NCBI GenBank assembly: GCA_037200005.1
Contig: JBBCGY010000001.1
Coordinates: 602,416 to 666,415, forward strand
DNA from: Alphaproteobacteria bacterium
GTDB lineage: Bacteria; Pseudomonadota; Alphaproteobacteria; UBA9219; RFNS01
DNA length: 64,000 nt
Direction: 5' to 3'
This document shows, one piece after another, positions 3,870 to 34,440 of this stretch (position 1 is its first letter; each line of letters starts with the position of its first letter). The position numbers were made by a program, and so were the translations under genes. The notes beneath the pieces are model-generated. The model did no database searches, was not told where the DNA came from, and was given only the letters and a program-made list of their open reading frames with translations.

Positions 3870-3956
3870 CCCGCAAAAGATATTTTCCTTGGTTTGCCTG
3901 CCGCGAGCCGTTATCTTCGCGCCGCGTAACGCTTGGCTCATATAACGGAACCCATC

Positions 3957-5064: not shown

Positions 5065-8000
5065 ATGACGCAAAAACGCCATTCCGTTACGTCCAATCCT
5101 CTTCTGCGGAAGAGGAAAACCCCGGCGCGCGCCCGCGAAGCCGGATTCATGATCGCGCCTATTCTCTATGTCCTGACCCTGGCCGGGGTCGGCGCGGCGA
5201 TTTTGTTCAGCGGCTACTCGCAAATCCTGCGGACCAATATCGAAATCAGCCGCAATAACGCCGCGAAGAATGAGCTGTCTGCCGCGTCCAGGACATTGGC
5301 GGCGAAGACGACCCTGATTAACGGAGAAACACAAATACAGCCGCCCGCCGTGCTGGATTGCAGTTCCGCCGACGCGGCAAAACTGCCTGGCGGCAACACC
5401 ACGGATTGTTCCACTGCAGGCGGCAGCGGTTCGCCGACTACCTTCGGCGTTCTCGATCCTGCGTCAGGGACGAAGCAGCTTGATCCCTGGGGGCATTATT
5501 ATATTTATTGCCGCTGGGAAGGACTTGCGGCCAATCCGGGTGATTCCGGCATCATGATCATCAGCGCCGGGCCGGATGGCCGTCTTCAGAGTACGTGTAA
5601 CAGCGGAACTACGCCGGGAGGCGACGACCGCGTTGAGTGGTTGAGCGTCGCCAATACCATTCAGCGCGCCAATGTATGGGATTATCAGACCGCGACCGGC
5701 GTCGATCCCGCCAAAGCCCATTTCGGCATTGCCGGTGACGCCGTGCAGGTCACCGCCAGCGGTGATATCACCGCGCGGTCTTTGACGCTGTCGGCTACGG
5801 GAAATATAACGACGGGGTCTCTGACCCTGACGACGACGGCGCTGCCGATCGACCAGGGCGGCACGGGCGCGCGCACAGCGGATGATGCCTTGACCAATTT
5901 CGGCGGTCAGACAACAGGCATAGACGTTTTCAGGTCGCTGACGGAGACAGGCGCTCGCGTGGCGCTAGGCGCGACGGCAGTCGGCCATGGCGTATTTACG
6001 GCCGGATCTACAGCGGCGGGGCGCGGCGCGCTCGGCGCGGGCGCTATCGGCGATCTTTTGTTCCAGACTTCGACGGCCGCCGATGCGCGCGCGACCTTGG
6101 GGGCGCAGGCGATAGGCGACGCGCTGTTCCAGACGGCGACGGCTTCGACGGCGCGGGCAACGCTCGGCGCGACGTCGGTTGGCGAGGGCGTGTTCACGGC
6201 GATCAGCACCGGCGCGGCGCTGGATTCTCTCGGCGCGGGCGCGACAGGCAAGGCGGTATTCGCGGCCGGCACCGAGAGCGCGGGACAAGACGCGCTCGGC
6301 GCGGGCGCGACGGGCAAAGCGGTGTTTATCGCGACGACGACCGGCGACGCTTATACCGCGCTCGGCCTCGTCAACGGCAATCCGGTCAACATTACGGCTT
6401 CCAACGCCACGTCGGCGGGGACCGCGACGACCATATCGGGAACGCTGGATATCGCCCATGGCGGCACGGGCGCGACGGACTGGAGCGGGGCGCTGGCCAA
6501 TCTCCATGCGAACGACGCGTCTAACCTGACGGTCGGGACGCTTCACCGGGATCGCTTGCCGCCTCCGGACGCCATCGGCGGAGTTGTGTATAACTGGGGC
6601 ACGGTGAACGATAAAGGCATCGTGACCACGCCTCACGACGTGGTCTCCAACGAGCTTCGGGAAAATGATACGGCCGTCACCGTGAGCGACCTCACGGCGG
6701 GCACCAGCACCGGCGGCGAGATCGCCTTCACGATCGAGGGCACGACGCAGGCGGTCTTCAACGACGTGGGTTATCTCGGTCTCGGCACGACCGATCCGCA
6801 AGACCGGCTGCATGTCGCGGGCACGAACGCCGCCATCAGGCTCGAGGGCGAGGAAGAAACCAACCGCTTCTTCCGCATCACGACCAATGCGGACAGGCGG
6901 TGGGAATTCGGCGCCGACAATACCGATGAAACCGGCGGCGCGGTCGGCTCGAATTTCGTCATCAAGCGATATGACGACAATGGCGATCCGCTTCCCGGCA
7001 CGCCCTTCATGATCGATCGCGCGACCGGCAACGTCACCTTCAGCGGCACCATCAGCGCGAGCGGTTTTTCCGGCACGTCCACGGGCGGCGGCAGCATGGC
7101 GCTGGGCGTCAGCGCCGCCGCGACCAATCCGGCACGCGACACCGAAGTGAATACCGGTCTGTTCAGCGGCGCGACCGGACGGGTGAGCGTGGCGTCGCTC
7201 GGCACGGAAGTCGCGCGCTTCTCGGCGACCGGACTCAATCTGACGACGGCGACGGGCGCCTTGCAGATCAATTCGATGAACGGCCTGCGGCTGACGACGA
7301 CCGGCAACCCCATCGTCGGCGACACGGCGATGTCCGCCACCCTCGCGCCGCTATCGGTCGGCATCGGCAAGAACGCGCTGGCGAGCGTGACGGCGGAGCG
7401 GTCTGCGGTGGCGATCGGCCATCGGGCGCTTGCCGCCAACACGACAGGCAGCGGCAATGTCGCCGTGGGGCGCGAGGCGCTCAGAGACAATATTTCATCG
7501 AGCTACAATGTCGCTATCGGTTATCAGGCGATGGCGACCGGCACCGCGGGAGGCGATCAGAACAACGCGGTTGGGTATCAGGCCCTGTATAACAACTGGG
7601 GCTCATTGAATAATGCGTTTGGCTATAGGGCCCTGCTCAACAATACCTATGGTCTATATAATTCTGGCTTCGGCGATTCGGTTCTGCAAAACACGACGAC
7701 CGGAAGCTTTAACAGCGCATTCGGCGCGACCGCGCTTTACGGCAACACCACCGGCTCTTCCAACAATGCCTTCGGTGTCGAGGCGCTGTATTCAACCACG
7801 ACCGGTAATAATAATGTCGCCGTGGGCAGCGACACGCTCTATCGCAATGTAGGCGGCAGCAATAATGTGGCCGTCGGTCACAATGCCGTCATGGGTACGG
7901 TCGGGCAAAGCGCCCTTGTCAATAATCTGGTCGGCGTCGGCTATGCGGCGCTGACGGCGGCATATTCTTCGGCGACCGGCAACACGGCGGTCGGGTATCA

Positions 8001-11000
8001 GGCTTCAACGGCGATTACGACCGGCGCGAACAACACGACGTTCGGTTATAATGCGGGCAACACGATCACGACGGGTGCGAACAACCTCTTGATCGGCTCC
8101 GGCGTCACGACCCCCGCCGCCGATACGAACAACTGGCTAAATCTCGGCGGGATGATCTATGGCAGCACGCTGACGGGATCGCAAGTCGCTATCGGCTCCG
8201 GCATCACCTCGATGACCCCGCAAATCGCGCTTGATGTGCGGACGACCAATTCGATACGCATTCCGGTCGGCACCAGCGCGGAGCGTCCGACCACCGGCGC
8301 GGCGGGCATGCTTCGCTATAATACGTCCAGCGGCACGCCGGAATATTTCGACGGCACCATATGGCAGAGCTTCAGCAGCGCGACCAGCACCGGGATGAGT
8401 ATTGTCCTGGGCGGCTCGGCTTCGGCCAACAACCCATACAGAAGCGGCGAACTCACGACCGGTCTGTTCAGCACCACGACCGGCGGCAGCGGGCAGGTGA
8501 GCGTGGCTTCGCTCGGCGTCGAAGTGGGGCGCTTCTCGGCGACCGGCCTCAACCTGACGACGGCGACCGGCGCGCTGCAGATCAACAGCGTGAACGCGAT
8601 CAAGATGCCCAACGCAAGCAGTCTCGTGATCGGCAACAGCGGCGCGACGGCTTTGACGGGCGCAAACAATGTCTCGGTTGGGTATCAGGCGCTGAACGCG
8701 ACGACGACAGGCACGGCTAATACGGCGGTTGGTTATCAGGCGTTGGACGCCAACACGGGGGGGGTATCCAATGCTGCCTTCGGCGAGAATGTTCTCGGCA
8801 GCAACACGACGGGCATCAATAACGCCGCCTTTGGCGGCAATGACGGTGGCGGCAAATATACGCTCGGCAGCAATACGACTGGCGCCTTCAATAGCGCGTT
8901 CGGGCCGGGGGCGCTCGGCAGCAACACGACGGGAGAGGAGAATAGCGCTTTCGGCGATGCGGCGCTTTCGAGTAGCACGACCGGAGGATTTAATACCGCT
9001 TTCGGCGCCGGTGGTCTCTTGAGTAATATCAATGGCAGCTATAATACGGCGTTGGGTAGCGGCCCATATCCTGATACGACGCTCGGCCGTAATACTTCCG
9101 GCAATTACAATCTAGGCCTGGGTTCCGGCGCGCTTAAGGGCGTCACCAGTGGCTCGAGCAATATCGGCCTCGGCCATAATGTCGGCAGCACCCTGCAGAC
9201 CGGCAGCGACAATATCCTGATCGGCAACACGGCGGATACGCCCGCCGCCGGAACGAACAACTGGCTGAATATCGGCGGGATGATCTATGGCAGCACGCTG
9301 ACGGGATCGCAAGTCGCGATCGGCAGCAGCATTACATCGATGACGCCGGGGATCGCGCTCGACGTGCAGACGACGAATTCGATCCGCATTCCGGTGGGCA
9401 ACAGCACGACGGACCGTCCCACTGGCGTGACCGGCATGATCCGGTACAACACGACCAGCGGCGTGGTCGAGTATTTCGACGGCCTCACCTGGCTGAGTTT
9501 CGCCAACACGTCCGGCAGCAGCCTTACCACCAATCTCGGCGGATCGGCGGCGGCGGCGAATCCCGCGAGAAACGGCGAGGCCAATACCGGTCTGTTCAGC
9601 ACCACGACCGGCGGCAGCGGGCAGGTGAGCGTGGCTTCGCTCGGTGTCGAAGTGGGGCGGTTCTCGGCGACCGGCCTTAATCTGACGACGGCGACCGGCG
9701 CGTTGCAGATCAACAGCGTGAACGCGATCAAAATGCCCAACGCAAGCAGTCTCGTGATCGGCAACAGCGGCGCGACGGCGCTGACGGGCACGAACAATGT
9801 CTCAGTTGGGTATCAGGCGCTCAACGCAACGACGACAGGAACGTGGAACGTAGCCGTCGGTTCCGGCGCGCTCGCCGCCAACACGTCTGGCACCGGTAAC
9901 ACCGCCTTGGGCGGAGAGGCGCTGAACGCAACGACAATTGGCATCGATAATATCGGCATCGGTTCTGGCGCGCTGTATAGGAACACGGTTGGCCAGTACA
10001 ACGTCAGCATCGGCACCGACGCTTTGACGACGGCAACCGGTGCATCGGGCCTGGTTGCCGTCGGCTTCGAGGCTTTGAAACTGGCGCAAACGACGGCGAC
10101 GGGCAACGTCGCGGTCGGGCATCAGGCGTCGAAGAATGTATCGACGGGCGCGAACAACACGACGTTCGGCTATCAGGCGGGCAATACGATCACGACGGGC
10201 GCGAACAACATCCTGATCGGTTCCGGCGTCACGACTCCCGCTGCCGGAACGAACAACTGGCTGAATATCGGCGGGATGATATACGGCAGTACGCTGACGG
10301 GATCGCAGGTCGCCATCGGCAGCAGCATCACCTCGATGGTGCCGGGGATCGCGCTTGATGTGCAGACGACAAACTCCATCCGCATCCCGGTGGGCAACAG
10401 CACGACGGATCGTCCCGGTACGGGCGCGGCGGGCATGATCCGCTACAATAGCACCAGCGGCTGGCCGGAATATTACGATGGCAGCACATGGCTGGCCTTT
10501 GCATCAGGCGGCAGTTCGTCAGTTACTACGACACTAGGCGGATCGGCGGCGGCGGCGAATCCCGCGAGGAGCGGCGAGGCCAATACCGGCCTGTTCAGCG
10601 TCACGTCGGGCGGTAGCGGGCGTGTGAGCGTGGCGTCGCTCGGCACGGAAGTAGGCCGGTTCGACGGCAGCGGCCTGAACCTCATGACCGCGACCGGCGC
10701 GCTGCAGATCAATTCGATGAACGGGCTGCGGCTGACGACGACCGGCAATCCCATCGTCGGCAATACGGCGATGTCGAGCTCTGCTGCTCCGCTTTCCATC
10801 GGTATCGGGCGCAACGCGCTGGCGGGAGCGTCGGTCGAGAGCTACAGCGTCGCTGTTGGCCATCGGGCGCTCGCCGTCGCGTCTGGCGCGCCCTATCTGA
10901 CCTTCGGCAACACCGCCGTTGGCTATAATGCGATGGCCGTTACGACGAGCGGCAACGGTAACGCGGCGGTAGGGGCCGAAGCGTTAGCGGCCAACACGAC

Positions 11001-26000: not shown

Positions 26001-29000
26001 CTATGGCAGCACGCTGACGGGATCGCAGGTGGCGATTGGTTCCGGCCTTACCTCGATGGTCGCGGGCATCGCGCTCGATCTCGGCAGCAATACCAGCTCC
26101 ATGCGCACGCCGGTCGGCAACACCGCGCAGCGGCCCGGCACCGGCGCGGCGGGCATGATCCGCTACAACACGCAGACCGGCGCGGGCGTGGTCGAGTATT
26201 TCGACGGCACCACATGGCAGAGCTTCGCCAACACGTCGGGCAGCAGCAGCACGACGGCGCTCGGCGGGTCGGCGGCAGCTCCAAGTCCCTACCGCAATGG
26301 CGAGGCGACGACGGGCCTGTTCTCGGCAACGACGACCGGCGGCGGGCAGGTGAGCATCGCTTCGGTGGGTGTCGAAGTGGCGCGGTTCTCGGCGACCGGA
26401 CTCAACCTGACGACCGCGACCGGCGCGTTGCAGATCAACGGCGCGAATGCATTGCGGCAGTTCGGCACGCAGAATGTCGCCGTGGGTCCGCTTGCCCTGA
26501 ATGCGACGACGACCGGCACGGAAAACACTGCCGTTGGCTATAGTACGCTCAAGAGCATGACGACGGGACAATGGAACACCGCCGTCGGCAGCGGTGCGAT
26601 GCAGGCGACGACGACAGGCTATGACAATACGGCGGTCGGCGCCGGGGCGATGTATAACAATACCGGCGGCACCGATAATACCGTGGTCGGCGACGATGCG
26701 CTCGCCAGCAATACCATGGGCAGTAAAAATGTTGCCTTAGGCCAGGCCGCTCTGGCGACGGCGACCGGTATCTCCAACACCGTTGCCATCGGCTATCAGG
26801 CATTGGCCGCCAATCTCAGTGGACCCGGCAACACGGCGGTCGGTTATATGGCGCTCTCCACCTCGACCGGCGGCGGATACAATAACGCGTTCGGATCGAG
26901 TGCTCTGAAATCCAATACGACGGGCGCCTCCAACAGTGCATTCGGCGCCGATGCTTTCAGCATTGGCGCACTTGGCAGCAACACGACCGGCGGCTACAAC
27001 AGCGCGTTCGGCGGCGGCTTCTACAAATCCGCGCTTGGCAGCAACACGACCGGCGCCTACAACAGCGCATTAGGCTCCGAGGCGGCCGGGAATATCATCG
27101 ATGGCAACCATATTGTTGCTATCGGCGCGGGCGCTCTGGCGACGGCGACTGGCCTCTCCGACACCGTGGCCGTCGGCTACGAAGCGCTGAAGTTGGCGCA
27201 GACGACGGCGGTAGGCAACACGGCGGTGGGGTATCAGGCTTCGACGGCGGTATCGACCGGGACGGCTAACACCACGCTTGGCTATACGGCGGGCACGGCC
27301 CTGACGACGGCAACGGGCAACACGGCGCTGGGCTATGGCGCGATGGCGACGGTCACGACCGGCTCGGGCAACGTGGCGATCGGTTCCGGCGCGATCGGCG
27401 CGACGGCGAGCGCGTTTGCCCCGACTAACCTGACGGCGGTTGGCACGAATGCGCTGAGCCTCGCCCGCACGACGGCGACGGGCAACGTGGCGGTCGGGTA
27501 CAATGCTTCGACGGCGATCACGACCGGCAATAACAACACCACGCTCGGCTACACGGCGGGCGCAGCGTTGACGAGCGGCGCAGGCAACGTCGCGCTGGGC
27601 AGCGGCGCGCTGGCGCCGATCACGACCGGCACGGACAACGTAGCTATCGGCAGGAACGCCATCGGTTCGACGGCGAGCGCGTTCGCACCGACACAGTTGG
27701 TCGCCATCGGTGCGGATGCCTTGAGCCTGGCGCGGACGACGGCGACGGGCAATACGGCTGTGGGTTATCAGGCATCGAAGGCGATTACCACCGGCTCGGG
27801 CAACACCACGTTCGGCTATCAGGCCGGAACGGCCATGACGACGGCGCAAACCAACGTAGCCATAGGCTACCAAGCGCTGAGCACGGTGACAACCGCGGTA
27901 GGCAGCACGGCCGTCGGGTATATGACACTCGCCAGCTCGACGGGCGACAACAATACCGCCGTCGGCTCTTGGTCATTGCGGTCGAACACCAACGGCTACA
28001 GCAATACCGCGGTCGGCGAGGCGACGCTCGGCAGTAATACTACCGGTGTTTATAACGTCGCCATAGGCGGCCCGGATATTGCTGGCGATTATTCGCCATT
28101 ATACTCCAACACCACCGGCAATTATAATACGGCCGTCGGCACCCAGGCTCTCGGTCATGCCACGACAGCCTATAGCAACAGCGCCTTCGGCAGCACGGCG
28201 CTTATCAACACGACGACCGGTGTCGAGAACAGCGCCTTTGGCGCCGTCGCGATGACTAGCAATCTGACGGGCAGCAGCAATGTCGCATTCGGCGTCAAGG
28301 CGCTCTATACGTCGACCGGTCTCGATAATACCGTTGCCGTTGGTTTCGAGGCGTTAAATCTGGCGCAAACCACGGCGACCGGCAATACGGCGGTCGGATA
28401 TCAGGCATCGAAGGCCGTATCGACCGGCAAGGCCAACACCACGCTCGGCTATACGGCAGGCACGGCGCTGACAACGGCGACGGGCAACATTGCGATAGGC
28501 TATACGGCATTATCCACGGTGACGACCGGCTCGGGCAACGTGGCAATCGGCAACAACACGATCAATCCGGCGAGCTCGGCTACCCCGCTTAACCTGACGG
28601 CGGTCGGCACGAACGCCTTGAGCCTCGCCCGCGCGACGGCGACGGGCAACGTGGCGATAGGCTACAACGCTTCGACGGGGATTACGACCGGCGCGAACAA
28701 TACGACGCTGGGCTACACGGCGGGCGCGGCGCTGACGAGCGGCGCGCAGAATATCGCCATCGGCTCGGGCGCGCTGGCGCCGATCACGACCGGCACCGAC
28801 AACGTCGCCATCGGCGTGAACGCCATCGGATCGACGGCGAGCGCGTTCGCGCCGACGCAGCTGGTTGCCATCGGCACGGATGCGCTGAGCCTGGCGCGGA
28901 CGACGGCGACGGGCAACGTGGCGGTGGGCTATCAGGCGTCCAAGGCGATCACGACCGGCGCGAATAATACGACGTTCGGTTACCAGGCCGGCAATACGAT

Positions 29001-32000
29001 CACGACCGGCGCGAACAACGTCCTGATCGGTTCCGGCGTGACGACCCCCGCCGCCGGAACGAACAACTGGCTGAATATCGGCGGGATGATCTATGGCAGC
29101 ACGCTGACGGGATCGCAGGTGGCGATCGGCAGCGGCATCACCTCGATGGTCGCGGGCATCGCGCTTGATCTCGGCAGCAACACCAGCTCGATGCGCACGC
29201 CGGTCGGCAACACGGCGCAGCGTCCCGGCACCGGCGCGGCGGGCATGATCCGCTACAACACGCAGACCGGCGCGGGCGTGGTCGAGTATTTCGACGGCAC
29301 CACATGGCAGAGCTTCGCCAACACGTCGGGCAGCAGCGTCACCACGACGCTCGGCGCGTCGGCTGCGGCCGCTAGCCCGAACCGCACCGGCGAGGCCAAT
29401 ACCGGCCTGTTCAGCGTAACGTCGGGCGGCAGCGGGCAGGTGAGCGTCGCCTCGCTCGGCACGGAAGTGGCCCGTTTCGACGGCAGCGGACTCAATCTTA
29501 CCACCGCGACCGGCGCGTACCTGATCAACGGCGCGAACGCGCTGACGATTAAGGCTGGCGATAATCTGATCATCGGCAATACCGGCGCGACGGCGGTGAC
29601 CGGCGGCCAAAATGTGGCGGCGGGCAAAGGCGCGCTTAACGCCACCGTCACCGGCAGCTATAACAGCGCCTTCGGCACCGATGCGCTATACAATAACCTG
29701 ACCGGCGACAACAACGTTGCTGTAGGCCAGGCGGCGCTGTATAGCAGCACGACGGGTAGTATCGGCAACGTCGCAGTTGGCGCTAGCGCGCTTAAGAGCT
29801 TCCAAAGCGGCTCGGGCAATGTCGCGATCGGCACGACCGCGATGTTCGGCGCCACCGATGGATCGGATAACATCGCCCTCGGCCATGACTCGCTGTGGAG
29901 CAACCAGGGCAATGGCAATATCGCTTTCGGCCTAGAAGCTCTGCACGACACTACGACGGGCGATGGCAATATCGGCATCGGCGGTTCCGCGCTCCGGAGT
30001 AACGTGACCGGCGGCTACAATATCGCCCTCGGCAACACCGCGATGTTCAATGCCGACGGGGGCAGCCAGAATATCGCTCTCGGCCATGACTCGCTGTGGA
30101 ACAACCAGGCTGACGAGAATATCGCTCTCGGCCAGAACGCGCTGCACGATACCACGACGGGCGGACACAATATCGGCATCGGCTCGTCGGCGCTTATCAA
30201 TAATGTGAACGGCGATCACAATATCGGTCTTGGCCAAGAGGCGGTGCGGGGAGACGGCGACGGCATGTCAGGATCGGATAATGTCGGCATCGGCTATCAG
30301 ACTCTCTACAGCGTGACAGAGGGCAGCGGAAATTTCGCCGGCGGTCTTGCGGCTCTCAACCGCACCACGACGGGCAGCATGAATGTCGCGCTCGGCTCGC
30401 AGGCCATGTATAATAACTTGACCGGAAGCTCTAACGTCGCGCTTGGCGAGAATGCAATGCGGGGCAGCGGCGACGGCATATCGGGGTCGAGTAATATCGG
30501 CATCGGTAGCGGGACGCTCCATGATCTGTTGGTCGGCACGGATAATATTGCTCTTGGTAATTCGGCGCTATGGCGCACAGGGACGGGCAGCATGAATGTC
30601 GCGCTCGGTTCGCTCGCCATGTATAATAACCTAACCGGCAACTCTAACGTTGCGCTCGGCGAGAATGCGATGCGGGGCAGCGGCGACGGCATATCGGGGT
30701 CGGGTAATGTCGCCATCGGCTATCAGACGCTCCACGATATAGAATCGGGCGAGCAAAATATCGCTCTCGGCGATTCGGCGCTCAGACGCACATGGACGGG
30801 CAGCATGAATGTCGCGCTCGGCTCGCAGGCCATGTATAACAACATAACCGGAAGCTCTAACATCGCGCTCGGCGAGAATGCGATGATGGGCGACGGCGGC
30901 GGGATGTCGGGCACCTATAATACGGCTCTTGGATATAGCTCTCTCCACGATCTGTCGACCGGCACCTACAACATCGCCCTCGGCTATCAGGCGGGCAATA
31001 GCATCACGACCGGCGAGAAGAATATCCTGATCGGCTATGACGTGGATACGCCCGCTGCCGGAACGAGCAACTGGCTGAATATCGGCGGCGTGATCTTCGG
31101 CGCGACGGCGACCGCGACGCCGCAGATCGCTATCGGCAGCGGCATCGCGTCGTTCACGGCGGGCGTGGCTCTGGACGTGCAGACGACGAATTCGATGCGG
31201 GTGCCGGTTGGCACGACGGGGCAGCGTCCCGGCACCGGCCTCGCAGGCATGATCCGCTACAACACCACGACCGCCGATGTCGGGCTGGAATATTCCGACG
31301 CGGGCGGCGTGTGGCATAATGTCGCCAGCGGCGGCGGTTCGCCGAGCGCGGACCTGGGAACCGGTCCGAGCGCGACCGCGCCGCAGCGCAGCGGCGAGGC
31401 GGGCACGGGCCTTTACAGCGCGAACAGCGGCGAGGTCAGCGTGGCGTCGCTCGGCACGCAGATCCTGCGGCTTTCCAGCACCAACTTCGCATATGGCGAC
31501 GGCGCGTTGAATGCGGTGACATCAGGCATCAACAATTTCGCGGCGGGTTATCAGGCGCTCACCAGCACCACGACCGGCACCGACAATACCGGCATAGGCT
31601 ATCAGCCGCTCTTCACTCTTACGACGGGCAGCCGCAATTTTGCGGCCGGCAATCAAGCGCAGCTCCAGAACTCGACAGGCGATGATAACACCGGCATCGG
31701 CTGGTATGCGCTCCGTAACAATACCACCGGGAACAGAAATATCGGTATCGGCCCTCAGGCGCTGCAAGGCGATCTCGGCGGCATGTCGGGCGACGATAAT
31801 ATCGGCCTCGGCTATCAGACTTTGATGAATTTGACAGAGGGCAGTAACAATTTCGCCGTCGGCGCTGGTGCACTGCTCTTCAATGTGAATGGCGATAGCA
31901 ATATCGCGCTCGGCGAGCGCGCGGTGCGGGGTGACGTCGGCGGCATGTCGGGCAACGCCAATATCGGCCTCGGCTATGAGACGCTGGCAAACTTGACGGA

Positions 32001-34440
32001 AGGCTACGAGAATTTCGCCGTTGGCTATCATGCGCTTCTCAATACGACGACGGGCTACAAGAATATCGGCATCGGCACCGACGCGCTGTTCAGCAACGTG
32101 AATGGCGATCATAATATTGGGATCGGCGAGCGCGCGGTGGCAGGCGGCGGTGATGGTATATCGGGCGGCGCCAATATCGGCCTCGGCTACGAGACACTAT
32201 ATAAAGTGACAGAGGGTTCCGACAATTTCGCCGTCGGCTATCATGCGCTGATGAACACGACGACGGGCTACAAGAATATCGGCATCGGCGTCGACGCGCT
32301 GGTCAATAATGTGAATGGCGATCATAATATCGGACTCGGCGAGCGCGCGGTGATGGGCAATAATATATCGGGCGGCGCCAATATCGGCCTCGGCTATGAG
32401 ACGCTGGCAAACTTGACGGGGGGCAACGAGAATTTCGCCGCCGGCTATCATGCGCTTCTCAATACCACAACGGGCTACAAGAATATCGGCATCGGCACCG
32501 AGGCGCTGGTCAACAATGTGAATGGCGATCATAATATCGGGATCGGCGAGAAAGCGGTGATGGGCAATAATATATCGGGCGGGCATAATATTGGCCTCGG
32601 TTATGAGACGCTGGCAAACTTGACGGAGGGCGGAGAGAATTTCGCCGCCGGTATTGGGGCGCTCAACCACACCACGACGGGCAACAGGAACGTCGCGCTC
32701 GGCAGGCTCGCCATGTACAACAACTTAACCGGCAGCTCTAACGTCGCGCTCGGCGAGGCTGCGATGCTGGGCAGCGGCGCCGGCATATCGGGAGGGAATA
32801 ATGTCGCCATCGGCCGCGAGGCGCTCCATGACGTGGACGAGGGTGAAAACAATGTCGCTGTCGGCAACGCGGCGCTCAGCCGCACGACGACAGGCAGCAG
32901 GAACGTGGCGCTCGGTTATCTCGCCATGTACAATAATTTTACCGGCAGTGCTAACGTCGCGCTCGGCGAGGGGGCGATGGTGGGTAGCGGCGGTGGTATA
33001 TCGGGAGGGAATAATGTCGCCATCGGCCGCGAGGCTCTCCATGATGTGGATGAGGGCGAATACAATGTCGCTGTCGGCAATGCGGCGCTCAGCCGCACGA
33101 CGACGGGCAGCGGGAATGTCGCGCTCGGCAAGCTCGCCATGTACAACAACTTTACCGGCGCCAATAACATCGCGCTCGGCCAGAATGCGATGCTGGGCAG
33201 CGGCGGCGGCATGTCGGGAACGGATAATGTTGGCATTGGCCGAGAGGCGCTCAACAATCTGGCGTCGGGCGACCATAATTTCGCCGTCGGTTACCGCGCT
33301 ATGTATAGCACTACGACCGGCGCGAATAATATCGCCCTCGGCTTCCAGGCCGGGTATAACGTCACGACCGGCCAGAATAATATCCTGATCGGCAACAGCA
33401 CGGATACGCCCGCCGCCGGGACGAGCAACTGGCTGAATATTGGTGGGATGATCTTCGGCAGCACGACCACCGGATCGCAGGTCGTTGTCGGATCCGGCGT
33501 CACGTCGGTGGTCGCGGATATCGCGCTCGATGTGCAGGCGACGAATTCGCTGCGGGTTCCGGTCGGCACGACGGGGCAGCGTCCCGCCACCGGCCTCGCG
33601 GGCATGATCCGCTATAACACCACGACCGCCGATGTCGGGCTGGAATATTCCGACGCGGGCGGGACATGGCATAACGTCTCCGGCGGCGGGGGTGGTTCCA
33701 GCAATCTCGGCGCATCGGCTTCCGCCACCAGCCCGTCGCGCAGCGGCGAGGCCAATACCGGCCTGTTCAGCGTCACCAGCGGCGGCAGCGGCCAGGTCTC
33801 CATCGCTTCGCTCGGCAGCGAGGTCGCGCGCTTCGCCTCATCGACGGTCATCAATTTCCTCGGCTCGACTTCGACGGGGGCGGCGATCACCGTCGGCACC
33901 AACTCGACCAACGGCAACGGCGCGCTGCTGACGGCGGCGGGGGTCTGGACCAACGCTTCCGACGCCCGCCTGAAAGAGAATGTCCGGCCGATCCAGTACG
34001 GGCTGAACACCGTGATGCAGCTCAACCCGGTCGCCTATGAGATGAAAGGCACGCATGACAAGCAGGTCGGCTTCATCGCGCAGCAGGTCGAGCCGGTCAT
34101 CCCCGAACTCGTCGTCAAGAACAGCGACGGCCGATATGGCCTGTCCTATGGCAACATGACCGCCGTGACGGTCAAGGCGATCCAGGAACTCAAGGCCGAG
34201 AACGATAATCTGCGGCATCAGGTAGCGATGCTGCAGGCGCAGATGGACGGCGGCGCGGGCGGTTCCGGTAAGCTGGGCGACGCGGGCGGCGATGATGGCA
34301 TCAAGCGCGCGAGCTTCTTCGGCGGCGACGCGGCGCTGTTCTACGGCTTCGGCGGACTGCTGTTCGTCGGCATCGCCGGGGTCGGATTCATGGTCATTCG
34401 CCTGCGCCGCGAGTTGCGGGCGATGAAGAAGGCGGCGTAA
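5065..34440 (+). CDS. Giant 9,791-residue repeat fibre/adhesin: prepilin-like N-terminus, beta-roll repeats, C-terminal Peptidase_S74 chaperone
   Basis: One open frame of 29,376 bases; I estimate just under 1 MDa because it is so rich in Gly, Ala, Thr, Asn and Ser. In order: basic leader (1-26); hydrophobic segment (28-50) after G27; pseudopilin-like domain to ~190 with the only four cysteines I can find (99, 115, 149, 178); tail-fibre-like GGTGA repeats (~260-480); a GLGTTDPQDRLHV fibre module (~569-660); 17-residue repeats of the form N-x-A-x-G-x-x-A-L-x-x-x-T-T-G-x-x from ~750 to ~9,500, interrupted by 14 linkers; Peptidase_S74 with SDARLKENV (S9632, K9637); a coiled coil (~9703-9727); and a C-terminal membrane segment with a basic tail. 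Repeats of this kind resemble YadA heads and phage or bacterial fibres, which are trimeric. The probable role is a surface or released adhesive fibre. No secretion genes adjoin it. Confidence 0.9.
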   Translation: MTQKRHSVTSNPLLRKRKTPARAREAGFMIAPILYVLTLAGVGAAILFSGYSQILRTNIEISRNNAAKNELSAASRTLAAKTTLINGETQIQPPAVLDCSSADAAKLPGGNTTDCSTAGGSGSPTTFGVLDPASGTKQLDPWGHYYIYCRWEGLAANPGDSGIMIISAGPDGRLQSTCNSGTTPGGDDRVEWLSVANTIQRANVWDYQTATGVDPAKAHFGIAGDAVQVTASGDITARSLTLSATGNITTGSLTLTTTALPIDQGGTGARTADDALTNFGGQTTGIDVFRSLTETGARVALGATAVGHGVFTAGSTAAGRGALGAGAIGDLLFQTSTAADARATLGAQAIGDALFQTATASTARATLGATSVGEGVFTAISTGAALDSLGAGATGKAVFAAGTESAGQDALGAGATGKAVFIATTTGDAYTALGLVNGNPVNITASNATSAGTATTISGTLDIAHGGTGATDWSGALANLHANDASNLTVGTLHRDRLPPPDAIGGVVYNWGTVNDKGIVTTPHDVVSNELRENDTAVTVSDLTAGTSTGGEIAFTIEGTTQAVFNDVGYLGLGTTDPQDRLHVAGTNAAIRLEGEEETNRFFRITTNADRRWEFGADNTDETGGAVGSNFVIKRYDDNGDPLPGTPFMIDRATGNVTFSGTISASGFSGTSTGGGSMALGVSAAATNPARDTEVNTGLFSGATGRVSVASLGTEVARFSATGLNLTTATGALQINSMNGLRLTTTGNPIVGDTAMSATLAPLSVGIGKNALASVTAERSAVAIGHRALAANTTGSGNVAVGREALRDNISSSYNVAIGYQAMATGTAGGDQNNAVGYQALYNNWGSLNNAFGYRALLNNTYGLYNSGFGDSVLQNTTTGSFNSAFGATALYGNTTGSSNNAFGVEALYSTTTGNNNVAVGSDTLYRNVGGSNNVAVGHNAVMGTVGQSALVNNLVGVGYAALTAAYSSATGNTAVGYQASTAITTGANNTTFGYNAGNTITTGANNLLIGSGVTTPAADTNNWLNLGGMIYGSTLTGSQVAIGSGITSMTPQIALDVRTTNSIRIPVGTSAERPTTGAAGMLRYNTSSGTPEYFDGTIWQSFSSATSTGMSIVLGGSASANNPYRSGELTTGLFSTTTGGSGQVSVASLGVEVGRFSATGLNLTTATGALQINSVNAIKMPNASSLVIGNSGATALTGANNVSVGYQALNATTTGTANTAVGYQALDANTGGVSNAAFGENVLGSNTTGINNAAFGGNDGGGKYTLGSNTTGAFNSAFGPGALGSNTTGEENSAFGDAALSSSTTGGFNTAFGAGGLLSNINGSYNTALGSGPYPDTTLGRNTSGNYNLGLGSGALKGVTSGSSNIGLGHNVGSTLQTGSDNILIGNTADTPAAGTNNWLNIGGMIYGSTLTGSQVAIGSSITSMTPGIALDVQTTNSIRIPVGNSTTDRPTGVTGMIRYNTTSGVVEYFDGLTWLSFANTSGSSLTTNLGGSAAAANPARNGEANTGLFSTTTGGSGQVSVASLGVEVGRFSATGLNLTTATGALQINSVNAIKMPNASSLVIGNSGATALTGTNNVSVGYQALNATTTGTWNVAVGSGALAANTSGTGNTALGGEALNATTIGIDNIGIGSGALYRNTVGQYNVSIGTDALTTATGASGLVAVGFEALKLAQTTATGNVAVGHQASKNVSTGANNTTFGYQAGNTITTGANNILIGSGVTTPAAGTNNWLNIGGMIYGSTLTGSQVAIGSSITSMVPGIALDVQTTNSIRIPVGNSTTDRPGTGAAGMIRYNSTSGWPEYYDGSTWLAFASGGSSSVTTTLGGSAAAANPARSGEANTGLFSVTSGGSGRVSVASLGTEVGRFDGSGLNLMTATGALQINSMNGLRLTTTGNPIVGNTAMSSSAAPLSIGIGRNALAGASVESYSVAVGHRALAVASGAPYLTFGNTAVGYNAMAVTTSGNGNAAVGAEALAANTTGGGNNALGAGALYSNQTGSSNNAVGNGALFSNTTGSSNNAMGDEALGLTTTGTDNIAMGTYAMHANTVGQYNVAIGTNALATSTGLSNAIAIGFEAMNAAQTTATGNTAVGHQASKAITTGRRTTAVGYQALTANTTAVGNTAVGSSAMANTSTGSWNVAVGSSALSSNTNGSGNTAVGDGAAAANTSGVFNNAFGDDALSANTTGNNNIAIGDKAIYTATGLSDTVGIGFEALKLAQTTATGNTAVGHQALAADTTGAANTAFGYQAGDGITTGSNNILIGNGADTPAAGTNNWLNIGGLIYGSTLTGSQVAIGSSITSMVAGIALDVQTTNSIRIPVGNSTTDRPGTGAAGMIRYNSTSGWPEYYDGSAWKGFASGGSSAVTMTLGGSAAATSPQRSGEASTGLFSATTTGGGQVSVASLGTEVARFSATGLNLTTATGALQINSVNAIKMPATDNLVVGNTGATATTGSNNVAVGKSALNATTTGTDNIGLGTSALAANTVGQYNVGIGTSALTTATGLSNTIAIGFEALKLAQTTATANVAVGHQALKATTTGNNNTAMGYQALTANTTGTTNSAFGSGALMVATTASNNNAFGAGVLGGTTTGNHNNGFGSSTNGASALQSNTTGSANNAFGGSYGATNAPLGANTTGNYNSAFGDTALSKATTASDNNAFGSGALRNTVTGNNNVAFGSAALQGNLAGIYDVAIGNYALYTSTGLNDTVAVGYEALRNAQNTATGNVAVGHQALKAVSTGANNTTLGYTAGTALTSGAQNIAIGSGALATVTTGTDNVAIGKNAIGSTASALAPTQLVAIGTDALSTARTTATGNTAVGYQASKAITTGSGNTAVGYQALTTVDTGTLNTAMGYRALAIATSGSHYNAAFGDYAMGNSTTGTSNVAVGDYALYANSGGTTNSAIGGDVLWQNTTGSYNNAVGGGDGAAGGAALGANTTGSNNNAFGHAALGYNQTGSNNVAIGDAALSTATGLSSTVAVGFEALKLAQTTATGNVAVGHQASKNVSTGANNTTFGYQAGNTITTGANNILIGSGVTTPAAGTNNWLNIGGMIFGSTLTGSQIAIGSSITSMVPGIALDVQTTNSIRIPVGNSTTDRPGTGAAGMIRYNSTSGWPEYYDGSTWKGFASGGSSSVTLNLGGSAASTSPQRTGEAGTGLFSVTSGGSGQVSVASSGVEVGRFDGSGLNLTTATGALKINSVNALKMPGIANLALGEAAMTSITGGVSNVAAGYYALYNTTTGTENIAVGVGALYNSVNGQHNVGVGFEALRGGTGMSGQYNAAFGTQALWSLTTGVQNTANGYVALYNTTTGNYNSALGVGAMYSNVNGTGNAAVGYEALRGATGMSGNYNAAFGHQALYSLTTGGNNFAGGYQALYNNATGSNNIAIGTAALNTATGLSETVAIGFEALKLAQTTATGNVAVGYQAMAATTTGIRNTALGYQALQVTTTGTRNTAIGHMALQANTGGERNVAVGYDALQSNTTGIGNTGIGTDALFQATSGDHNVAVGRLAFPAISFSGSTNIGIGYNVGTTLQTGSNNILIGSGVTTPAAGTNNWLNIGGMIYGSTLTGSQVAIGSSITSMVPGIALDVQTTNSIRIPVGNSTTDRPGTGAAGMIRYNSTSGWPEYYDGSAWQSFSAGGTGPSSINLGASAAAANPRRSGEAGTGLFSVTSGGSGQVSIASLGVEVARFSATGLNLTTATGALQINSMNGLRLTTTGNPIVGDTAMSATLAPLSVGIGKNALAAVTTEGYNVAVGHQALAANTSGHDNSALGESALRSTTTGFSNSAVGNEALRDNTTGQYNSAFGASALQSNTTGTVNNAFGESALYSTTTGTENNAFGNSALYSNTIGRYNNAFGNQALYSATTATGNNAFGHQALYSTTTGGYNNAFGEGALYSNTTGTRNSAFGFQALNTTTTGTDNNAFGYQALSANTTGLRNQAIGGWALRLSTTGNDNIAIGDAALTNNTVGGFNVAIGTSALATATGLSSTTAIGYQALSSAQTSAGANTAVGYRVLVSTTTGANNNAFGYEALRDNTNGNYNNAFGRWALSQNTTGANNSAFGDGTMGSNTAGGNNSAFGSGALAGTTTGSENSAFGFQALRDNGTGNQNSAFGTWAASQTTTGTNNVAMGYVAFSGNKVGQYNVAIGSNALYTSTGLDNTVAIGYQALNLAQTTATGNTAVGHQALAADTTGNNNTAIGYAVLDANTTGINNTAVGTNAMGATTTGSWNAAVGSNALGSNTGGYGNTAVGDGAASFNTTGFFNNAFGDDALRANTVGTHNIAIGNAALYTATGMVGGVAIGHHALYLAQTTATGNVAVGHNASAAISTGANNTTLGYQAGNTITTGANNILVGSGITTPAAGTNNWLNIGGLIYGSTLTGSQVAIGSGLTSMVPGIALDVQTTNSIRIPVGNSTTDRPGTGAAGMIRYNSTSGWPEYYDGSTWKGFASGGSSSVTLTLGASAAATSPSRSGEVNTGLYSANSGEVSAASLGTQILRLSSTNFAYGSSALNGITTGSNNFAAGPGVLYSTTTGTDNVGIGNSALYYNTVGQQNIGIGYAAMRGASGMTGSSNIGLGSQTLYSLTTGSNNVAGGSSSLYSTTTGTDNVGIGSSALYSNTIGQQNIGIGYAALRGASGMTGSSNIGLGSQTLYSLTTGSNNVAGGSVALYSTTTGTDNVGIGNSALYSNTIGQYNIGIGYAALRGASGMTGNNNIGLGYQTLYSLTTGTNNFAGGTSALYNTTTGADNIAIGNGALYYNTIGQYNIALGKSALYTATGLSNTVAIGYQALNLAQTTATGNTAVGYNASSAVSTGANNTTFGYQAGSTITTGANNILVGSGVTTPAAGTNNWLNIGGMIFGSTLTGSQVAIGSGITSMVPGIAFDLGSNTNSMRIPIGNSTTDRPGTGATGMIRYNTTSAVVEYFDGSIWQSFANTSGSTTSMALGGSVGAPNPYRSGEATTGLFSTATGGGGQVSVGSVGVEVARFSATGLNLTTATGALQINGVNAHRQFGTANIAIGASALNATTTGTDNIGMGSSALAANTVGQYNVGIGTSALATATGLSSAVAVGYQAMNLAQTTATGNAAVGYQALKSLSIGTYNSAFGHQALYTSTTGVRNNAFGFQALYNTTTGTDNNAIGYQALYGNTAGVRNQALGGWALKQNTTGTDNIAIGDAALTANTVGQYNVAIGTSALATATGLSSAVAIGYQALRVAQTGATGSVAVGPSALANTTTGAYNNAFGGLALASNITGSYNVAIGESALTMATALDGTVAVGYHALQWAQTTATGNTAVGYNASGALTTGTNNTAVGYQVLAATTTGTDNTAMGTSALAANTVGQYNVAIGTSAMATATSAVSSTAVGYQALQATTTSHNSAFGYQALKSNTTGNLNSAFGASDASFGGAGSALTANTTGSVNSAFGAGALASATTANSNNAFGAGALQRTTTGSNNNAFGSSAVNESAMQQNTTGSGNNAFGGDYANVNAALGANTTGNWNSAFGDTALSHATTASDNNAFGSGALRNTTTGHDNAGFGSVALLSNLTGSLNVAIGNYSLTTSTGLDNTVAVGYEALRNAQTTATGNTAVGYQASKAVSTGKANTTLGYTAGTALTTATGNTALGYGAMATVTTGSGNVAIGSGAIGATASAFAPVNLTAVGTNALNLARTTATGNVAVGYNASTVLTTGANNTTVGYTAGTALTSGAQNIAIGSGALTTITTGTDNVAIGVNAIGSTASAFAPTKLVAIGTDALSLARTTATGNVAVGYQALKVTSTGNDNTAMGYLALTSNTVGQWNTAVGSNALVATTTGLNNTAVGAYTMMSNTSGHDNNAVGSGSFSALQNNTTGTNNNAFGSNALGNNTTGNFNSAFGDSALLTATGASGLTAMGFEALKLAQTTATGNVALGYQASAAVSTGANNTTFGYQAGNTITTGANNILIGSGVTTPAAGTNNWLNIGGMIYGSTLTGSQVAIGSSITSMVAGIALDVRTTNSIRIPVGNSTTDRPGTGAQGMIRYNTTSGWPEYYDGSAWQSFASGGTGPASTNLGGSAAATSPQRSGEANTGLFSVTSGGSGLVSVASLGVEVARFSATGLNLTTATGALQINSVNAIKMPATDNLVVGNTGATATTGSNNVAVGKSALNATTTGTDNIGMGKNALAANTVGQYNVAVGTDALSTATGATVSIAIGYEALKLAKTGAYGNTAVGHQALKSTTTGTINTAVGFLALTSMTTGSYNTALGDNTMVNSVVGDGNVAIGDYALYNNQVSGNVAIGVDALWQNTTGGHNTAVGANALQGNSTGEGNSAFGVGVLYSTTTGNQNSAFGSSRMVNGALASNSTGSSNSAFGAGYWEAALGSNTTGNYNSAFGDSALAKATTADSNSAFGTFAMVNTTTGAHNSAFGYNVLQANLTGSNNVAFGENALYTSVGLSNTVAIGFEALKLAQTTATGNVALGYQASAAVSTGANNTTFGYQAGNTITTGANNILIGSGVTTPAAGTNNWLNIGGMIYGSTLTGSQVAIGSGITSMVAGIALDLGSNTSSMRTPVGNTAQRPGTGAAGMIRYNTQTGAGVVEYFDGTTWQSFANTSGSSSTTALGASAGSPSPYRSGEATTGLYSANSGEVSAASLGTQMLRLSTTNFAYGSGALNAITTGSNNFAGGANALYSTTTGADNIALGNTAMLSNVNGQRNIAMGSNTIRGGSGMSGSDNIGLGAQALYALTTGGNNFASGYTALYSTTTGTDNIAIGNTAMLSNVNGQRNIAMGSNTIRGGSGMSGSDNIGLGAQALYALTTGGNNFASGYTALYSTTTGTDNIAIGNSAMLSNVNGQRNIAMGSNAIRGGSGMSGTDNIGLGAQTLYSLTTGTNNFASGYQALYNTTTGADNIGIGYQALLGNTVGQYNIALGKSALLTATGLANTVAIGYEALKLAQTTATGNVALGYQASAAVSTGANNTTFGYQAGNTITTGANNILIGSGITTPAAGTNNWLNIGGMIYGSTLTGSQVAIGSGLTSMVAGIALDLGSNTSSMRTPVGNTAQRPGTGAAGMIRYNTQTGAGVVEYFDGTTWQSFANTSGSSSTTALGGSAAAPSPYRNGEATTGLFSATTTGGGQVSIASVGVEVARFSATGLNLTTATGALQINGANALRQFGTQNVAVGPLALNATTTGTENTAVGYSTLKSMTTGQWNTAVGSGAMQATTTGYDNTAVGAGAMYNNTGGTDNTVVGDDALASNTMGSKNVALGQAALATATGISNTVAIGYQALAANLSGPGNTAVGYMALSTSTGGGYNNAFGSSALKSNTTGASNSAFGADAFSIGALGSNTTGGYNSAFGGGFYKSALGSNTTGAYNSALGSEAAGNIIDGNHIVAIGAGALATATGLSDTVAVGYEALKLAQTTAVGNTAVGYQASTAVSTGTANTTLGYTAGTALTTATGNTALGYGAMATVTTGSGNVAIGSGAIGATASAFAPTNLTAVGTNALSLARTTATGNVAVGYNASTAITTGNNNTTLGYTAGAALTSGAGNVALGSGALAPITTGTDNVAIGRNAIGSTASAFAPTQLVAIGADALSLARTTATGNTAVGYQASKAITTGSGNTTFGYQAGTAMTTAQTNVAIGYQALSTVTTAVGSTAVGYMTLASSTGDNNTAVGSWSLRSNTNGYSNTAVGEATLGSNTTGVYNVAIGGPDIAGDYSPLYSNTTGNYNTAVGTQALGHATTAYSNSAFGSTALINTTTGVENSAFGAVAMTSNLTGSSNVAFGVKALYTSTGLDNTVAVGFEALNLAQTTATGNTAVGYQASKAVSTGKANTTLGYTAGTALTTATGNIAIGYTALSTVTTGSGNVAIGNNTINPASSATPLNLTAVGTNALSLARATATGNVAIGYNASTGITTGANNTTLGYTAGAALTSGAQNIAIGSGALAPITTGTDNVAIGVNAIGSTASAFAPTQLVAIGTDALSLARTTATGNVAVGYQASKAITTGANNTTFGYQAGNTITTGANNVLIGSGVTTPAAGTNNWLNIGGMIYGSTLTGSQVAIGSGITSMVAGIALDLGSNTSSMRTPVGNTAQRPGTGAAGMIRYNTQTGAGVVEYFDGTTWQSFANTSGSSVTTTLGASAAAASPNRTGEANTGLFSVTSGGSGQVSVASLGTEVARFDGSGLNLTTATGAYLINGANALTIKAGDNLIIGNTGATAVTGGQNVAAGKGALNATVTGSYNSAFGTDALYNNLTGDNNVAVGQAALYSSTTGSIGNVAVGASALKSFQSGSGNVAIGTTAMFGATDGSDNIALGHDSLWSNQGNGNIAFGLEALHDTTTGDGNIGIGGSALRSNVTGGYNIALGNTAMFNADGGSQNIALGHDSLWNNQADENIALGQNALHDTTTGGHNIGIGSSALINNVNGDHNIGLGQEAVRGDGDGMSGSDNVGIGYQTLYSVTEGSGNFAGGLAALNRTTTGSMNVALGSQAMYNNLTGSSNVALGENAMRGSGDGISGSSNIGIGSGTLHDLLVGTDNIALGNSALWRTGTGSMNVALGSLAMYNNLTGNSNVALGENAMRGSGDGISGSGNVAIGYQTLHDIESGEQNIALGDSALRRTWTGSMNVALGSQAMYNNITGSSNIALGENAMMGDGGGMSGTYNTALGYSSLHDLSTGTYNIALGYQAGNSITTGEKNILIGYDVDTPAAGTSNWLNIGGVIFGATATATPQIAIGSGIASFTAGVALDVQTTNSMRVPVGTTGQRPGTGLAGMIRYNTTTADVGLEYSDAGGVWHNVASGGGSPSADLGTGPSATAPQRSGEAGTGLYSANSGEVSVASLGTQILRLSSTNFAYGDGALNAVTSGINNFAAGYQALTSTTTGTDNTGIGYQPLFTLTTGSRNFAAGNQAQLQNSTGDDNTGIGWYALRNNTTGNRNIGIGPQALQGDLGGMSGDDNIGLGYQTLMNLTEGSNNFAVGAGALLFNVNGDSNIALGERAVRGDVGGMSGNANIGLGYETLANLTEGYENFAVGYHALLNTTTGYKNIGIGTDALFSNVNGDHNIGIGERAVAGGGDGISGGANIGLGYETLYKVTEGSDNFAVGYHALMNTTTGYKNIGIGVDALVNNVNGDHNIGLGERAVMGNNISGGANIGLGYETLANLTGGNENFAAGYHALLNTTTGYKNIGIGTEALVNNVNGDHNIGIGEKAVMGNNISGGHNIGLGYETLANLTEGGENFAAGIGALNHTTTGNRNVALGRLAMYNNLTGSSNVALGEAAMLGSGAGISGGNNVAIGREALHDVDEGENNVAVGNAALSRTTTGSRNVALGYLAMYNNFTGSANVALGEGAMVGSGGGISGGNNVAIGREALHDVDEGEYNVAVGNAALSRTTTGSGNVALGKLAMYNNFTGANNIALGQNAMLGSGGGMSGTDNVGIGREALNNLASGDHNFAVGYRAMYSTTTGANNIALGFQAGYNVTTGQNNILIGNSTDTPAAGTSNWLNIGGMIFGSTTTGSQVVVGSGVTSVVADIALDVQATNSLRVPVGTTGQRPATGLAGMIRYNTTTADVGLEYSDAGGTWHNVSGGGGGSSNLGASASATSPSRSGEANTGLFSVTSGGSGQVSIASLGSEVARFASSTVINFLGSTSTGAAITVGTNSTNGNGALLTAAGVWTNASDARLKENVRPIQYGLNTVMQLNPVAYEMKGTHDKQVGFIAQQVEPVIPELVVKNSDGRYGLSYGNMTAVTVKAIQELKAENDNLRHQVAMLQAQMDGGAGGSGKLGDAGGDDGIKRASFFGGDAALFYGFGGLLFVGIAGVGFMVIRLRRELRAMKKAA
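5143..5640 (+). other. Prepilin/pseudopilin-like N-terminal domain of the giant protein
   Basis: Residues 27-190. A basic leader ends in EAG-FMIAPILYV: a Gly before Phe at the start of a ~20-residue hydrophobic helix, as at prepilin peptidase sites, although the usual Glu at +5 is Pro. Further on, DPWGHYYIYC (from residue 140) and the stretch ISAGPDG resemble the WG-x-PY-x-Y and S-x-G-x-DG motifs of GspG-like pseudopilins and pilus-tip adhesins. Cysteines at 99, 115, 149 and 178 could form two disulfides. Processing by a prepilin peptidase is inference. Confidence 0.6.
5840..6520 (+). repeat. Phage-tail-fibre-like GGTGA and ~24-residue Ala/Thr repeats
   Basis: Two copies of a motif D/H-x-GGTGA (LPIDQGGTGARTADDAL at about 5845 and LDIAHGGTGATDW at about 6450) bracket roughly six ~24-residue units of the type ARATLGAxxxGxxxFxT. 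Such units are familiar from tail-fibre proteins of dsDNA phages. They sit between the pseudopilin-like domain and the beta-roll region and may form a stalk. Confidence 0.65.
12720..13500 (+). repeat. Block repeat A, related to 21190-22330
   Basis: This stretch encodes a run of units whose order and odd insertions (an ASALQSNTTG unit, a GGSYGATNAPLGANTTG unit, a DTALSKATTASDNNAFG unit, then GYEALRNAQ and GSTASALAP) recur with changes at 21190-22330. Shared irregular insertions show duplication of the whole block, not independent expansion of single 17-mers. Confidence 0.7.
14761..15390 (+). repeat. 210-bp tandem array 1 in the fibre gene
   Basis: Corresponding T-T-G positions fall at 14761, 14971 and 15181, a period of exactly 210 bp (70 residues: three 17-mers and one 19-mer that holds the G-x-G-M-S-G insert). 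The third copy degenerates into ordinary units. Confidence 0.75.
18631..19470 (+). repeat. 210-bp tandem array 2 in the fibre gene
   Basis: Copies start at 18631, 18841, 19051 and 19261, each 210 bp. Each encodes an NIGIGYAALRGASGMTG unit followed by an NIGLGSQTLYSLTTG unit, then two ordinary 17-mers. The first three are very similar at the DNA level; the fourth has drifted. Confidence 0.85.
25021..25860 (+). repeat. 210-bp tandem array 3, with two copies one base apart
   Basis: Copies start at 25021, 25231, 25441 and 25651. The blocks 25051-25260 and 25261-25470 are identical except for one base (C at 25080, T at 25290). This indicates a very recent duplication or gene conversion. Each copy encodes units with SNVNGQRN and GGSGMSGSDN. 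Confidence 0.9.
29860..33300 (+). repeat. Tandem ~207-213-bp arrays near the C-terminal end of the fibre region
   Basis: Three sub-arrays with period about 213 bp (71 residues) are seen: AGCAT marks at 30376, 30589 and 30802; GAATATC marks at 32061, 32274 and 32481 (213, then 207); and GAACGT/GAATGT marks at 32688, 32901 and 33114. Each unit carries a G-D/G-G-x-S-G insert, and the encoded units are richer in Asp, Glu and His than those upstream. Confidence 0.75.
33940..34440 (+). other. Peptidase_S74 chaperone, coiled coil and C-terminal membrane anchor of the giant protein
   Basis: Residues ~9,626-9,791. SDARLKENV at 9632 matches the self-cleavage site of S74 (endosialidase-type) intramolecular chaperones, where the Ser and the Lys five residues on form the catalytic pair and the cut falls before the Ser. 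The core follows: LNPVAYEMKG, VGFIAQQVEPVIPELV, YGLSYGNMTAV. A heptad-rich stretch (VKAIQELKAENDNLRHQV) follows, then a ~20-residue hydrophobic segment (FGGLLFVGIAGVGFMVI) and a basic tail. The family needs trimer formation for cleavage. The membrane segment after the chaperone is unusual. Confidence 0.85.

Follow-up and report, generated by a model that had tools for sequence, protein, structure and literature searches.

A 9,791-residue fibre protein with a pilin-like N-terminus and an S74 chaperone in a Micavibrio-like alphaproteobacterium

The window, that is, the whole 64,000-nucleotide stretch of DNA analyzed here, lies within a 1.83-Mb contig of a genome that consists of two contigs (2.36 Mb). 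It contains an open reading frame at 5065..34440 on the + strand, which starts with ATG, encodes 9,791 aa, and has its sole stop at the end. The full chain has a calculated mass of 962 kDa, and its four cysteines are all located inside the pilin-like domain. The features of the locus are as follows.

3933..4763, + strand: bacA/uppP (undecaprenyl-diphosphatase); Pfam BacA, E = 4e-84
5065..5145, + strand: hydrophilic Lys/Arg-rich leader ending in Gly, residues 1-27; G-F junction invariant in 20 homologues
5146..5679, + strand: putative type IV pilin-like domain, residues 28-205; from the alignment, AF2, structural matches, and controls for the T2SSG region
5680..7350, + strand: stalk (LGA..VF.A.T..AR repeats), neck, and first head module, residues 206-762; by inspection and head motifs
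7351..33381, + strand: shaft of 14 left-handed-type beta-roll blocks, residues 763-9,439; from AF2, structural matches, and PHROGs
33382..33957, + strand: final linker and head, residues 9440-9631, the fibre tip preceding the chaperone; by inspection and head motifs
33958..34113, + strand: Peptidase_S74 intramolecular chaperone with SDARLK (Ser9632, Lys9637); PF13884, E = 3e-15
34162..34260, + strand: predicted coiled coil and Gly-rich spacer, C-terminal of S74; by inspection of the sequence
34327..34437, + strand: C-terminal membrane helix (~residues 9755-9780) and basic tail RLRRELRAMKKAA; by hydropathy

The order proposed in the original prediction, from a membrane start through a stalk and the beta-roll to an S74 chaperone and a membrane end, holds in this gene, whose two hydrophobic helices (residues 25-45 and 9755-9780) have opposite predicted topology. 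The gene bacA is found immediately 5' of the giant gene in the window and of the homologous gene in three other genomes (G003, G002, and G008), which indicates the same locus; bacA marks this syntenic locus and probably lies outside the fibre system. A promoter scan 5' of the giant gene found nothing. Further downstream, an acyl-CoA synthetase-like gene (34487-36181) is followed by a gene for a WD40 beta-propeller protein of 348 aa (36455-37501, - strand).

Recoding or frameshifting is unnecessary to account for the protein, as the frame is open from end to end. A frame of such length and base composition should contain approximately 284 stops, and none was found internally; the other two forward frames contain 319 and 318 stops. 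The GC content at codon positions 1, 2, and 3 is 53, 57, and 78%, respectively. Comparison of the 14 linker cassettes (91 pairs) gave pS = 0.37 and pN = 0.15 (ratio 0.42), indicating that the repeats diverged as protein-coding DNA subject to purifying selection. Since no exact DNA repeat exceeds 185 bp in length, collapse of the array is not expected with long reads, and near-identical tandem units of 210 bp at ~18.7-19.2 kb and ~25.1-25.4 kb are the sole places where a repeat miscount could arise. The open frame, the codon-position GC, the selection on the repeats, and the 185-bp maximum bear out the earlier claim of a single uninterrupted gene for 9,791 residues.

The shaft has a repeat period of 17 aa (257 coincidences at lag 17 by autocorrelation, with lags 34 and 51 next). 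Its 14 roll blocks of 8 to 53 turns total 6,187 aa, or 364 turns, and alternate with linkers (NWLNIGG..GMIRYN) and head modules (PxRSGEAxTGLFS). With turns of 0.48 nm, the roll would be ~175 nm long, in agreement with the ~350 turns and 0.17 um estimated previously. One roll block was modeled by AF2 as a regular solenoid with a strand at 17-residue intervals, and its best structural matches are the trimeric autotransporter heads UspA1 (Z 14.9), CbpF (14.6), and YadA (13.8). Unrelated left-handed helices such as GlmU reach Z ~12.5 against the same block; thus, the fold class of the modeled roll is firm, whereas its closer kinship to trimeric autotransporter heads is only likely. A phmmer search with a repeat block had no hit among PDB sequences, and the roll is therefore without a close solved sequence relative. 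The model, with its best matches among such heads, argues for the predicted beta-roll fibre and against an unrelated disordered chain, and we regard the assignment of the beta-roll and S74 as nearly certain. By analogy with S74 fibres and YadA-type heads, the shaft may be a trimer, although the models are single-chain.

The N-terminal leader MTQKRHSVTSNPLLRKRKTPARAREAG precedes a hydrophobic stretch that begins FMIAPILYVL, and is hydrophilic and basic with a terminal Gly, as is characteristic of class III leaders. A prepilin-type cut is predicted between G27 and F28, and the G-F pair at this position is invariant in an alignment of 20 homologues, which also share DPWG, CRW, and AG motifs. The sheet motif of the domain (DPWGHYYIYC..SAGPDG..GGDD) is GspG-like. 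Mature position 5 is Pro rather than Glu in nearly all of the aligned homologues, which is unusual for a pilin. Tip-capping pilins are reported to lack Glu5 (PMC10191384), so this substitution speaks against a major pilin and not against a tip pilin.

The similarity of this domain to pilin families is statistically weak in sequence. T2SSG was the top Pfam family but stayed below the threshold (5 of 20 members; 12.2 bits vs. a cut-off of 21), and the N_methyl Pfam signature did not match the N-domain; for this reason we term the protein pilin-like and not a Pfam pilin. The best PDB profile match was a geopilin, with an E-value of 0.7. In HHalign comparisons with GspG proteins, the helix start and DPWG-Y..SxGxDG both align in register, and the C-terminal part with the helix omitted scored 33.4, compared to a maximum of 21.1 and a mean of 11.4 among 40 column-shuffled control profiles. 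The AF2 model consists of a helix (residues 6-57, 52 residues) followed by strands, with a pLDDT of only 69. Foldseek gave no match of this model to PDB at E < 0.1, and the full-domain rows of a structural re-alignment were XcpG (Z 3.8), EHEC GspG (3.6), and PulG (3.5), all with low Z. A pilin-like domain in the first ~205 residues is the best reading of these tests combined, none of which is decisive alone, and we consider it about two-thirds secure.

Homologues of the N-domain occur in 27 of 59 relatives, all from the organism's own order (Micavibrio-like Alphaproteobacteria). When the comparison was widened to sampled genomes of the class (385) and of the phylum (398), strong matches were confined to this order and weak ones to a few other families. 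The membrane-targeting start of the original prediction stands as a hydrophobic helix, but it had not been recognized that this helix belongs to a conserved domain resembling type IV pilins, which would provide the route of export that was absent from the earlier account. If the pilin assignment is correct, a pilin module would be joined here to domains that are not pilus-specific, namely S74 and a phage-like fibre.

At the C-terminal end of the beta-fibre, the S74 domain carries SDxxxK (SDARLK, from residue 9632) and aligns with the S74 domains of phage tail fibres 8jov and 6f45. Intramolecular chaperones of the S74 type ordinarily cleave themselves from the fibre. For the S74 fibre Bd3182, self-cleavage at the serine of SDxxxK has been demonstrated (PMC10769870), and cleavage immediately before Ser9632 is predicted for the giant. 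Since S74 normally self-cuts and SDARLK is present, the fibre is probably not anchored permanently by its C-terminal membrane helix. The chaperone and the membrane end are both present as originally described, although the self-cut that would make this end non-permanent had been overlooked. The ending of S74 followed by a membrane helix, with a tail of the same type, recurs in fibre-type ORFs of six more relatives within the order and in two giants of another family. Complete homologues in G002 and G008 have S74 and lack the C-terminal membrane helix, and double tethering is therefore not universal.

A search for the same end-to-end order of domains, as had been suggested, found it in those two giants (G348, 4,765 aa; G267, 5,041 aa), each consisting of a leader, a helix, DPWG..AGPD..GGDD, a fibre, S74, and a membrane helix with a basic tail. 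The recurrence of this architecture among relatives identifies a family and not a one-off. S74 domains were detected in 32 of the 34 nearest genomes, and at least 15 relatives encode ORFs of ~430-590 aa with a canonical GFTLIELAIV prepilin start and an S74 end. Predicted fusions of a pilin and S74 are a theme of the organism's order. No description of giant pilins or pilin-S74 fibres in Micavibrio was found in the literature searched.

Prepilin peptidase, secretin, and PilB-size secretion ATPase each have four matches in the organism's own genome, which also contains a PilT-like pair of PilT-size ATPases. One cluster contains a secretin, N_methyl pilins, an ATPase, and a GspF-type platform protein, and a second contains a secretin, an ATPase, and a platform protein. 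GspG had no match in this genome, and no pilus genes were found beside the giant gene among the scanned genes of the window.

Our preferred reading, which we consider probable, is that the giant is a modular tip or minor pilin that would be tethered at both ends, trimerize, be cut by S74, be exported through a secretin, and bind other cells. We hypothesize that its release and extension would proceed as follows. Prepilin peptidase would cut off the 27-residue leader. The N-terminal helix would lie in the inner membrane and the fibre would extend into the periplasm, its far end held to the inner membrane by the C-terminal helix. Three chains would then fold under S74 into a trimer of pilin heads, a stalk, and 14 YadA-like beta-roll rods. 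Correct trimerization would lead to the S74 cut at Ser9632, upon which the chaperone and C-terminal helix would remain in the membrane and the fibre between the two predicted cuts (~9,600 residues, 942 kDa per chain) would be released. As it lacks Glu5, the pilin module would cap the filament, and type IV pilus assembly would drive the fibre through the secretin with its distal end leading. A ~0.2-um binding fibre may thereby be shown at the pilus tip, where retraction could draw it back.

The likely use of such a fibre would be the recognition and gripping of other cells. Prey cells are plausible targets, by analogy with known systems and because the named relatives include Micavibrio (two relatives are labeled as such). 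The most specific form of this idea, which we put forward only tentatively, is a new class of surface grapple at the pilus tip: chains of nearly 10,000 residues, doubly tethered and released upon complete folding of the trimer and the S74 cut, would be extended through a secretin as the pilus grows, drawn in again by its retraction, and used by Micavibrio-like epibiotic predators to catch prey. A difficulty for the mechanism is that a 0.2-um rod must fold in a far thinner periplasm and then pass a secretin, and we know of no precedent for periplasmic folding and secretin passage of so long a fibre.

A different route to the surface would apply if the protein were an S74 fibre resembling the Bdellovibrio MATs, its N-helix a mere membrane signal anchor and its export independent of pili. 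The S74 fibre architecture, SDxxxK, and the putative trimeric beta-fibre resemble those of MATs, S74 fibres with Sec signals adjoin the homologue in G002, and pilus genes are not adjacent to the giant gene. However, the hydrophobic start leads here into a conserved pilin-like domain of GspG type, whereas the signal peptide of MATs is followed by a beta domain of ~130 aa, and canonical prepilin-S74 proteins occur in the same order, which renders this alternative unlikely. Distinctly less probable is a periplasmic or envelope-spanning fibre with both ends in the inner membrane, functioning as a spacer or sensor and not as an adhesin. The opposite predicted topology of the end helices and the conservation of the C-terminal helix would fit such an arrangement, but the roll alone, at ~175 nm, is far beyond the width of the periplasm, the modules are of the phage receptor-binding type, and S74 with its intact catalytic motif should remove the C-terminal helix.

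The shaft repeats match phage tailspike and structural PHROGs with E-values down to 1e-108, the tip matches S74 tail fibres, and predicted viral structures also match the roll, all of which could point to a prophage or a phage-derived tail fibre gene in the chromosome. We nevertheless regard such an origin as very improbable, as no phage genes were found among the scanned genes of the window, the position behind bacA is conserved in four genomes, and the N-domain had no match in 50,697 phage records or in the viral contigs scanned.

Shorter genes that were lengthened or fused by an assembly or repeat-expansion artefact are likewise hardly to be expected. The assemblies of most relatives do break in the repeats, at contig ends, and a 70-aa tandem unit of the giant is nearly identical across three copies. 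In several relatives, the N-terminal half leaves one contig end and the C-terminal half begins at another, indicating that short-read assemblies break in the repeats and that the listed lengths are minima. Nevertheless, the 29-kb open frame, the divergence of the repeats, their short longest exact match, and the purifying selection on them contradict an artefact, and there are independent giants of 3,384, 4,028, 4,765, and 5,041 aa in other genomes. A trimeric autotransporter (type Vc) adhesin is the least credible alternative, for although the shaft models as a left-handed beta-roll head of the YadA/UspA1 type, the N-terminus is pilin-like, the C-terminus is built of S74, a coiled coil, and one hydrophobic helix followed by a basic tail, and no Pfam family match to a YadA membrane anchor was found in the protein, confirming the earlier remark that this anchor is missing. 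A type I-secreted RTX adhesin was rejected, as parts of such a system were not seen.

Several known systems resemble parts of the giant. A survey of modular type IV pilins, published with PilB of S. sanguinis in 2021, includes the combination of a pilin module and S74 (IPR012902-IPR030392) (PMC8179133). Like the giant, these proteins have an N-terminal pilin module and a C-terminal functional graft, S74 is listed among the grafts, and a tip location was proposed. However, their extreme is 860 aa with 12 repeat copies, whereas the giant has 9,791 aa, a shaft of 14 beta-roll blocks, and a membrane helix at its C-terminus, and the S74 graft was taken as a peptidase activity there and is interpreted as a fibre chaperone here. 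The N-helix of the giant is without the FTLIE motif, and a search with IPR012902 would probably miss it. CofB and TcpB (PMC7248040, PMC9565799) are trimeric minor pilins that sit at pilus tips. They and the conjugative PilV adhesins also have a pilin domain followed by beta-rich domains, and the homotrimeric tip location of CofB/TcpB and the target-cell recognition by PilV are shared with the role proposed for the giant. As described, they have two extra short domains or a variable tip, are many-fold shorter, and are not noted to carry S74.

The MAT fibres of the predator Bdellovibrio, e.g., Bd3182, are phage-like trimeric beta-fibres with a self-cleaving S74 and SDxxxK (PMC10769870). These are ~1,000 aa in length, and their signal peptide and ~130-aa beta domain set them apart by description from the N-domain of the giant, which differs in its pilin-like start, its tenfold length, and the membrane helix that follows S74. 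Phage tail fibres and tailspikes with S74 (PHROGs 4636, 23837, 6002, and 5481) match the repeats, linkers, and chaperone directly, but the giant is encoded by a cellular gene in which a pilin-like N-domain replaces the tail-attachment domain. The heads of YadA, UspA1, and CbpF share the predicted fold with the 17-residue repeats, while the giant differs from YadA-type proteins in its turns of 17 residues and the absence of the autotransporter anchor. Pilin-S74 fusions are already known, but not of such length, with such a shaft, or with the proposed double anchoring; in architecture we would place the giant as a new and extreme variant of a cross between a modular tip pilin and an S74 fibre.

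Three subjects that are mostly studied separately come together in the giant: the tips of type IV pili, phage tail fibres whose chaperones cut themselves off, and bacterial surface proteins of very large size. The pilin-like reading offers a giant fibre an export route without autotransporter or type I secretion parts and suggests an in-built check for full length, as the freeing cut sits at the extreme C-terminus. The protein is also a candidate, open to testing, for the means by which Micavibrio-like bacteria grip other cells. The family spans the order and causes breaks in short-read assemblies, and has therefore probably escaped notice.

Variations on these parts were observed in the surrounding genomes. 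In the isolate Lab288P3 (G007; L045, L051), the N-domain is joined to Cys-rich repeats (NG.CG.A.G..W.W.CEG..GG) and not to beta-rolls, as expected for a carrier with exchangeable cargo, and the organism's own genome encodes a 936-aa protein of similar Cys-rich repeats (L081:2737-5547). Three adjoining giant pilin-fibre paralogues of 2855, 1726, and 1881 aa are located at ~102-118 kb of contig C6 in G167 (L149), a member of the family of G348 and G267. On contig C4 of G002 (L036), three S74 fibre ORFs with Sec-signal-like starts (1107, 400, and 574 aa) lie directly 3' of the pilin-type fibre gene and resemble a bank of MAT-like fibres.

In the congeneric genomes G004 (L039) and G010 (L049), the pilin-fibre ORF ends early and an S74 ORF lies nearby in another frame, which could be due to errors, decay, or phase variation. 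The organism's own genome also harbors a canonical FTLIEL prepilin ORF (L081:10098-11054) and an S74 ORF (L081:11132-11824) in adjacent frames at ~1.640-1.642 Mb of contig C1, possibly split by a frameshift or a sequence error. Four to five S74 ORFs of ~800-850 aa are located on both strands at ~61-67 kb of contig C2 in G013.
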